Shown: piece by piece, positions 168 through 5,887 of the stretch
How the letters are laid out: each line of letters starts with the position of its first letter
Position numbering within the stretch: position 1 is the stretch's first letter
NCBI GenBank assembly: GCA_016869975.1
Contig: VGCZ01000001.1
Span: forward strand, 62,001-126,000
Reading direction: 5' to 3'
DNA length: 64,000 nt
From: Alphaproteobacteria bacterium
GTDB lineage: Bacteria > Pseudomonadota > Alphaproteobacteria > Reyranellales > Reyranellaceae
Position numbers and translations under genes: made by a program
The notes under the pieces: model-generated
Databases searched by the model: none
What the model saw: the letters and a program-made list of their open reading frames with translations, nothing else
What the model was told of the DNA's origin: nothing

Positions 168-281
168 ATGCTCAGGAACACGACCCCTTGTGACCGACGC
201 CGACGTCGCCGCACCCCAGCGGCGGCTCTTCAGGCCGCGCGTCGATCCGCGTCCGTCCATGTGGTGACCGTCTCGCCGTAG
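168..281 (+). CDS. candidate Arg-run leader peptide ahead of argC
   Basis: This 37-codon frame contains six consecutive arginine codons (residues 10-15, positions 195-212), a further Arg pair at residues 25-26, and nine Arg in total. It ends about 38 bp before an intrinsic terminator that precedes argC, an arginine biosynthesis gene. That layout is what ribosome-mediated attenuation by arginyl-tRNA supply would need. Against it: the purine-rich AAAGGA (161-166) ends only one base before the ATG, which is too close for normal initiation, and GC3 is lower than in the overlapping frame at 190-267. The call is inference from layout. At most one of the two overlapping frames is likely to be the working leader. 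Confidence 0.33.
   Translation: MLRNTTPCDRRRRRRTPAAALQAARRSASVHVVTVSP
190..267 (+). CDS. alternative Arg-rich mini-ORF in the argC leader
   Basis: A GTG-initiated frame of 25 residues overlaps the 168-281 frame. It has five Arg, including an Arg pair, and ends in Ser-Met-Trp before TGA. Nearly all third positions are G or C, which looks more like real coding than the overlapping frame. The possible ribosome site AGGA (174-177) is 12 nt upstream, which is rather far. Whichever frame is read, translation would finish about 50 nt before the terminator hairpin, leaving room for a competing fold. Function is inferred only from position ahead of argC and from Arg content. Confidence 0.33.
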   Translation: MTDADVAAPQRRLFRPRVDPRPSMW

Positions 282-318
282 GTCCCACAAGCCGGAGCGA
301 CCCCGGCCCGCGTTTCTG

Positions 319-355
319 AACCCCCGCAGCCCTCGGCTTCGGGGGTTTTTTGTTT
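319..355 (+). terminator. intrinsic terminator, possibly an attenuator, before argC
   Basis: Arms AACCCCCG (319-326) and CGGGGGTT (340-347) pair perfectly. The loop holds a second helix, AGCC (328-331) with GGCT (335-338). A T tract runs from 346 to 351, followed by GTTTT. It lies only 26-62 bp before the argC ATG and has no other + strand gene after it, so it either ends an upstream transcript or controls read-through into argC. CCCCG at 301-305 could pair with the 3' arm instead and act as an antiterminator. Confidence 0.75.
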
Positions 356-1358: not shown

Positions 1359-1410
1359 TCCAGCGCGCCTCAGAGTGTGCTCGGCTCCGCAATTGCGAGG
1401 CTACAACCGG

Positions 1411-4636: not shown

Positions 4637-5887
4637 CTACGCCGCCGCGAGCTTCTGCGACACGGAGATGCGGCGAATGGTGATCACCGAGGCCATCGCC
4701 ATGAGGAACAGCACGGCGGTCATGATCAGGATGCCCTTCGGCATGCCGTGATCCATCATGTAGCCGAAGATCAGCGGCCCGATCGCCGAGCCGATGTCGA
4801 GGCCCGAATAGACGAAGCCGAACACCTTGCCCGACGCGCCCGGCGGGGTAGCCTTTCGCACGATCATGTCGCGCGACGGGCCGGTAGCGCCCGAGCTGAA
4901 GCCGGCCAGCGCCATCAGCAACGCCGTGCCGATGAATGGCAGGGCCGCCGTCGCGCAGAAGCCCATGAACAGGGCGGCGCAAAGCAGGCCGATGGCGGCG
5001 ACGCGGTCGTGCCGGTCGGTGCGATCCGCCAGCCAGCCGCCGGTCACCACCCCGAAGGCGCTGCCGACGTAGTAGGCGATCACCGCGTTGGCCGCCATCT
5101 TGGGCGTGATGTCGTAGATCGAGGCCAGGGCCTGCGAGCCGAAGGCGTTGATGCTGGGTCCGGTCATCGCGGCGAAGACGAAATAGACCATGCACATCAG
5201 GATCGGCGCGGAAAACAGCACCGCCAGCGACACCGAGCCGACGCCACGCGCGCCATGGCGGCCGCCCGCCGCCGCCGCGCCATCGGTGCGAATCACGCGG
5301 TGGTCGACATATAGGTTCGACGTCGCGGCGATGATCATCGCCATGGCGATGCCGATGGAGCCGGCGATCATCGCGGCGGAGCGCCAGCCCACAGTCTCCG
5401 ACAGGAACCACATCAGCGCGATCGAGGCCGGCCAGCCCAGCGTGCCGAACAGGCCGTGCGTGCCATAGGCGCGCCCGAGCCGCGGCGGCGAGACCGAGGC
5501 GTTGAGGATGGCGAAGTCGCAGGGGTGGAAAACGCAATTGCCGATACCTGCCACGACCGCCAGCACGACGAGGTGCCAGTAGCTCTGGGCGAAACCGGCC
5601 AGCGCCAGGGCGGCGCCGATCAGCGCCAGGCCACCGACCAGCAGTCGCCGGGCGCCGTAGCGGTCGACGGCGATACCGGCCAGCATCTGGCCGATGCAGG
5701 AGGTTACCGACATCACCGTCAGCAGCGCGCCCAGCTCGGTGAAGGAGACCTGGAAAGCGTCCTTCATCGGCCCGAACAGCGGCGGCAAGGCCTGCTGGTA
5801 GAAGTGGCTGATGCCGTGGGCCACGCCGATCAGGCCCATGACCTGGAAATCGCGACGTGGGGGATTGTCGAGAGCGGACGCCGTCAT
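4637..5887 (-). CDS. major facilitator superfamily transporter
   Basis: The 416-residue protein has about twelve hydrophobic helices, with a cytoplasmic loop in the middle (around residues 190-215, rich in Ala, Gly and charged residues). The GIAVDRYGARRLLVGG segment matches the MFS loop 2-3 signature (G-x3-D-R-x-G-x-R), and GGWLADRTDRHDR is its partner in the second half. It acts in the inner membrane. Substrate is unknown; the opening resembles permeases annotated as nitrate or sugar-phosphate transporters, which is too weak to name one. It is the first gene of a two-gene unit with the HAD hydrolase. Confidence 0.88.
   Translation of the reverse strand: MTASALDNPPRRDFQVMGLIGVAHGISHFYQQALPPLFGPMKDAFQVSFTELGALLTVMSVTSCIGQMLAGIAVDRYGARRLLVGGLALIGAALALAGFAQSYWHLVVLAVVAGIGNCVFHPCDFAILNASVSPPRLGRAYGTHGLFGTLGWPASIALMWFLSETVGWRSAAMIAGSIGIAMAMIIAATSNLYVDHRVIRTDGAAAAGGRHGARGVGSVSLAVLFSAPILMCMVYFVFAAMTGPSINAFGSQALASIYDITPKMAANAVIAYYVGSAFGVVTGGWLADRTDRHDRVAAIGLLCAALFMGFCATAALPFIGTALLMALAGFSSGATGPSRDMIVRKATPPGASGKVFGFVYSGLDIGSAIGPLIFGYMMDHGMPKGILIMTAVLFLMAMASVITIRRISVSQKLAAA

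Follow-up and report, generated by a model that had tools for sequence, protein, structure and literature searches.

The argC locus and its leader

The window, by which we mean the whole 64-kb stretch of Reyranellaceae DNA that was analysed, opens in the end of a gene for subunit IV of an aa3 cytochrome c oxidase, which begins before the window (Pfam COX4_pro_2, E 1.3e-8). Behind it, on the plus strand, lies argC (381-1358), whose product, N-acetyl-gamma-glutamyl-phosphate reductase, scores above the cut-off of NCBIfam TIGR01850 (284 bits versus 233.6). The gene is preceded by a ribosome site, AAAGGA, at 368-373, and AGGACA is kept before argC in most relatives. The intrinsic terminator that an earlier note on this DNA had placed ahead of argC proved to be real. 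Its stem-loop consists of arms at 319-331 and 335-347 (AACCCCCGCAGCC / GGCTTCGGGGGTT) that are 92% complementary and followed by six T, within a T tract at 346-356 seen both in the sequence and in the terminator scan. The stem-loop is kept in alignment A1, which comprises 60 correctly oriented leaders; its shuffle control and the terminator and covariation counts refer to the same 60. The region 160-380 as a whole folds more stably than its dinucleotide shuffles (z -2.4).

Two overlapping short frames on the plus strand precede the terminator, as the earlier note had described. The first (MLRNTTPCDRRRRRRTPAAALQAARRSASVHVVTVSP, 168-281) starts with ATG and ends with the stop codon TAG at 279-281; it has 37 codons, its peptide begins MLRNTTPCDRRRRRRTPAAA, and at 195-212 it contains six consecutive Arg codons, CGA CGC CGA CGT CGC CGC. 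The second starts with GTG and spans 190-267. The gene behind the run belongs to the metabolism of the amino acid that the run encodes. Runs of at least six Arg codons in an ATG frame arose in 0.1% of dinucleotide shuffles of 154-318. The minus strand of the 64-kb window has two further short ATG frames with such runs, so that the run by itself is weak evidence and it is conservation that decides.

Conservation among argC relatives

Relatives of ArgC were collected from genomes of the family Reyranellaceae and from GTDB contigs, and their upstream regions were compared after all loci had been oriented. Among 99 distinct upstream regions of close argC relatives, 65 have an intrinsic terminator with a G run and a T tract within about 110 nt of argC, and each of these 65 also has a short frame with 3-6 consecutive Arg codons; the remaining 34 have neither terminator nor leader. 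The comparison that the earlier note had proposed as a check therefore came out in its favour: relatives that keep the terminator keep the Arg codons. The ATG stands 9, 10 or 11 codons ahead of the run in 64 of the 65 leaders, with the frame kept up to the run; the exception (locus L022) has lost the leader start and is apparently a truncated insertion. The GTG of the 190-267 frame occurs in 28 of the 65 only, most of the others having no start codon at that place, and this frame, which does exist, was rejected as a leader. Judged by conservation, the true leader frame is 168-281 and not 190-267. Carriers of the leader include Reyranella, Vineibacter, Bosea, Methylobacterium, Roseomonas, Belnapia and Asaia, and also a plasmid of Methylobacterium aquaticum. 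A pattern search of 75 family genomes gave matches in 27, one apiece and immediately 5' of argC wherever checked. The class-wide scan matched in 1 of 385 sampled genomes, with a strict pattern that misses the window's own copy and gives no true frequency.

The reading frame is under constraint over part of the leader only. ATGs within 45 nt 5' of the Arg run are in frame with it in 67 cases, as against 10 in the other two frames combined. In alignment A1 indels within the run measure 6 nt, and single-base indels are common right after it; there, close relatives continue in different frames, reading RRRRRCTQAAALRAARR... in most and RRRRRCTPRRLFWLRVDRRPSAW in others. Gaps of six nucleotides in the run and of one base behind it suggest that selection maintains the frame as far as the Arg codons but does not extend to the rest of the peptide, as would be expected of a sensor and not of a functional protein. 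The choice of Arg codons is also skewed. CGA makes up 115 of the 294 run codons in the 65 leaders, compared with 3% of Arg codons in seven genes of the window, and CGA and CGT together make up 145 of 294, compared with 9%. Slow CGA and CGT codons could help the sensor, although the needs of base pairing are an alternative explanation for their enrichment.

In 62 of the 65 loci a -35-like TTGAC precedes the ATG of the leader by 36-38 nt, which places it upstream of the leader and not between 355 and 381; the three copies without it are those of the window, L022 and L094. In relatives a CAGTGT-like -10 element follows about 17 nt beyond TTGAC, and in the alignment this -10-like element ends about 11 nt before the ATG. 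From this spacing a transcript start is predicted within a few bases of the leader ATG. The earlier note had regarded it as a weak point that neither frame has an ideal ribosome site; this fits the predicted near-leaderless start and is reminiscent of trpL in Sinorhizobium, which is translated from a leaderless RNA (PMC10117765). The terminator scan recognised no promoter before argC in the window; transcripts would have to come in from the cytochrome oxidase subunit gene ahead of the leader or start at a promoter that escaped recognition. Since the conserved promoter is missing, continued regulation of this particular copy is uncertain, and by comparison with its relatives the window holds one of the less typical copies of the leader-argC unit.

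Alternative folds and the proposed attenuation

The 65 leaders were each modelled as nascent RNA, with folding extended as far as the terminator's 5' arm and a ribosome fixed at chosen positions. The predicted folds involve three segments, all on the plus strand: segment 1, the Arg codons at 195-212; segment 2 (222-244), which in constrained folding with shuffle control pairs with segment 1 when free and with segment 3 under a ribosome on the Arg codons; and segment 3 (304-327), the 3' side of the antiterminator in constrained folding, which overlaps the 5' arm of the terminator. In the free nascent leader the median expectation was 12.3 bp of the 1:2 pairing and 0 of 2:3. With a ribosome on the second Arg codon this changed to 0.1 bp of 1:2 and 14.2 bp of 2:3, the terminator arm being occluded in 97% of leaders. 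When the ribosome was placed at the stop codon and the 5' part was free to refold, the 1:2 pairing came back and 2:3 returned to 0. Dinucleotide shuffling of segment 2 reduced occlusion of the arm to 18%. The folds of the window copy also switch, with 13.3 and 12.7 bp of 2:3 for a ribosome at the second and the last Arg codon, respectively, and its 1:2 hairpin is weaker (8.8 bp). In these models the antiterminator would exclude the terminator and would itself be excluded by pairing with the codon-run segment.

Alternative structures of the kind for which the earlier note had recommended folding are thus found in silico, 1:2 with the terminator on the one hand and 2:3 on the other. Its own candidate antiterminator, CCCCG at 301-305 pairing with the 3' arm, was unsupported; the predicted antiterminator is formed by 222-244 with 304-327. 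Our first antiterminator model, GGGCTGCG with CGCAGCCC, fared no better, being absent in constrained folding, where this longer helix took its place. Two invariant bases of the terminator arm had also been thought to be unpaired in the terminator, which was wrong for one of them (an A that pairs with U).

When the full-length RNA is taken to equilibrium, the terminator prevails even under a stalled ribosome, with 5.4-5.8 of 6 pairs, so the switch would depend on co-transcriptional timing. Such dependence is general for attenuators. The outer antiterminator helix is paired in 99.7% of the cells of alignment A1. Covariation among the 60 leaders showed no antiterminator pair changed on both sides and a score like that of its shuffles; it is silent on the antiterminator because both strands are nearly invariant, and the counts neither support nor refute the helices. 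The RNAalifold consensus of all 60 leaders was poor, as the pairing register differs between two clades.

The anatomy of the leader, its conservation, the selection on its frame and the alternative folds are in silico results, and the conserved leader, the Arg run, the terminator and the folds lend strong support to the attenuation that the earlier note had read into this layout. Very probably the leader senses arginine and attenuates transcription of argC by a ribosome-mediated mechanism. Its nascent RNA would encode a peptide of 31-37 residues with a run of 3-6 Arg codons from codon 10-12. With charged tRNA-Arg plentiful, the ribosome would pass the run and segment 1 would pair with segment 2; given this hairpin, the terminator would form and RNA polymerase would halt before argC. 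With charged tRNA-Arg scarce, the ribosome would stall on the run and cover segment 1, and the freed segment 2 would pair with segment 3 and so engage the 5' arm of the terminator, letting the polymerase continue into argC. What we infer in this scheme is where transcription starts, that the leader is translated, that ribosomes stall on it and that argC responds to arginine.

Other roles for the leader were considered. It might instead encode a small basic peptide with a function of its own, or, once terminated, the leader RNA might act in trans in the manner reported for rnTrpL and peTrpL of Sinorhizobium; in favour are the near-leaderless layout, similar to that of trpL (PMC10117765), and a fair degree of conservation in the first half of the peptide. 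We regard this as unlikely in place of attenuation, as among close relatives half of the peptide is read in different frames and in Acetobacteraceae its N-terminus is another one, both of which speak against the peptide as the main role. The frame-shifting half argues against a peptide function and leaves room for an additional role of the RNA in trans, which it might have. A further possibility is that the leader senses a general slowdown of translation, or antibiotics, and not arginine, given that a ribosome halted over the run for whatever reason would release segment 2 and that rare CGA codons slow ribosomes generally. This is quite unlikely in view of the Arg codons being the only ones kept in all 65 leaders and of the regulated gene making arginine; the residue after the run, by comparison, is often Cys but is replaceable by Phe, Leu, Ser, Pro or Ala.

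A mobile argC and its relation to known attenuators

The genome from which the window derives harbours another ArgC, of the TIGR01851 type (G000:C52:8501-9418), a type found in all four genomes of the genus, and no similar leader is present upstream of its gene in the window genome. Distant alphaproteobacteria, and some betaproteobacteria, have a window-type ArgC with 86-93% identity. A threshold of E 1e-60 or better left 30 of the 75 family genomes without a match to this type, whose tree has families intermixed. In the window the leader-argC unit, extending approximately from 159 to 1410 on the plus strand, is inserted between the COX4_pro_2 cytochrome oxidase subunit gene and ndk. The empty site is seen in two sister genomes (G002 and G003), in which the ndk region follows the oxidase subunit gene within about 20 nt and argC is located elsewhere in the genome. 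The left junction, at 158/159, lies immediately before the leader ATG; with its edge in this position the unit would have left its promoter behind, and the promoter is missing in the window copy. From these comparisons, argC here is a second, horizontally moving copy. A search for a phage origin of argC gave no match, and terminal inverted repeats of the mobile unit are suspected but not established.

This mobility also bears on another account of the locus, in which the terminator would be an ordinary one of the upstream gene, argC would have its own promoter downstream and the Arg-rich frame would simply reflect high G+C. The window's terminator does come after the cytochrome oxidase subunit gene, and the scan, as mentioned, recognised no promoter. 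However, 96 upstream flanks of argC fall into 68 unrelated groups while leader and terminator go along with the gene; both are absent together from 34 regions, and selection acts against frameshifts in the Arg frame as far as the run, all of which makes this account very unlikely. Still less credible is a ligand-binding riboswitch or T-box with an incidental coding frame: strong sequence conservation (mean column identity of 78% in the leader region of alignment A1) would suit it, but no Rfam family was matched at threshold, the conserved segments are those needed by a three-segment attenuator, and the frame is protected.

In proteobacteria, repressors such as ArgR are described as the regulators of arginine biosynthesis. 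The window had no match at the gathering threshold to Rfam 15, T-boxes and riboswitches included, and sub-threshold matches were chance ones only. Nor was a description found in the literature on arginine attenuators and argC leaders, which was covered mostly without subscription papers, so that an earlier description is possible; according to the earlier note, attenuation is not known to be described for argC in this group. The attenuated operons named in PMC1183508 are trp, his, leu, thr, ilv and phe, and arg is not among them. The argC leader shares with these proteobacterial attenuators a short leader peptide with a run of cognate codons and mutually exclusive terminator and antiterminator structures between which the position of the ribosome decides. 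It differs from them in that the stop codon of the leader lies 24-46 nt past the antiterminator segment, and not between segments 1 and 2, and in that the unit is a single gene moving between genome sites. The trpL/rnTrpL system of Sinorhizobium is likewise an alphaproteobacterial attenuator, with a documented leaderless start where that of the argC leader is predicted, but it has Trp codons and regulates trpE, and the likeness described here is one of layout (PMC10117765). In the Salmonella orf34-speF leader, arginine is also sensed by ribosome pausing at consecutive Arg codons of a leader peptide, although the peptide is another one with two Arg codons, and the ornithine decarboxylase gene is controlled via Rho and RNase G with no intrinsic terminator (PMC6386406). 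The cysS motif uORFC-8-2 of Rhodobacterales is a computationally identified alphaproteobacterial leader with tandem cognate codons before a gene for the same amino acid, there with Cys codons and a tRNA synthetase gene (PMC8632094). The Arg T-box of Firmicutes (mentioned in PMC1262725) provides arginine-responsive transcription control of arginine genes as well, but reads the tRNA directly and has no leader peptide.

On balance we favour the view that this is an undescribed Arg-specific ribosome-mediated attenuator on an extra argC. This argC would be a single-gene unit that regulates itself and spreads among the chromosomes and plasmids of alphaproteobacteria, and its terminated leader RNA might also act in trans like rnTrpL. 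If so, the leader would add a new amino acid specificity in Alphaproteobacteria, a class with few worked examples, and a mobile metabolic gene would be carrying its own sensor, workable in any host because only ribosomes and charged tRNA are needed. Cultured carriers such as Bosea, Methylobacterium, Roseomonas and Reyranella make the attenuator directly testable.

Several further observations were made on the argC copies and their surroundings. ArgC proteins that are about 90% identical occur in Bosea, Bradyrhizobium, Cupriavidus gilardii, Ramlibacter and Reyranella (L038, L043, L053, L056 and others), an unusually wide transfer of a single biosynthetic gene. The 34 leaderless argC loci (for example L026, L043, L056 and L127) represent a second mobile version without the attenuator, often with a common 5' sequence (TTCGCTCACTCCAGCAGTAGGACACCACC) and a downstream sequence of their own (TGAGATCTTTTGCGAGTCCGTGTTGTCC). 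In several Reyranellaceae genomes (loci L029, L031, L035, L129 and L134) the mobile argC seemingly stands in tandem after another argC-like gene. In L005, an apparent truncated TetR-like regulator is located on the minus strand (5560-5870), flanked by the oxidase subunit gene and the gene that follows purN. A near-palindrome, CTCCGCAATTGCGAGtCTACGACC, recurs 3' of some Reyranellaceae argC copies (window 1379-1410, L007, L019 and L028) and is possibly a repeat or an insertion end.
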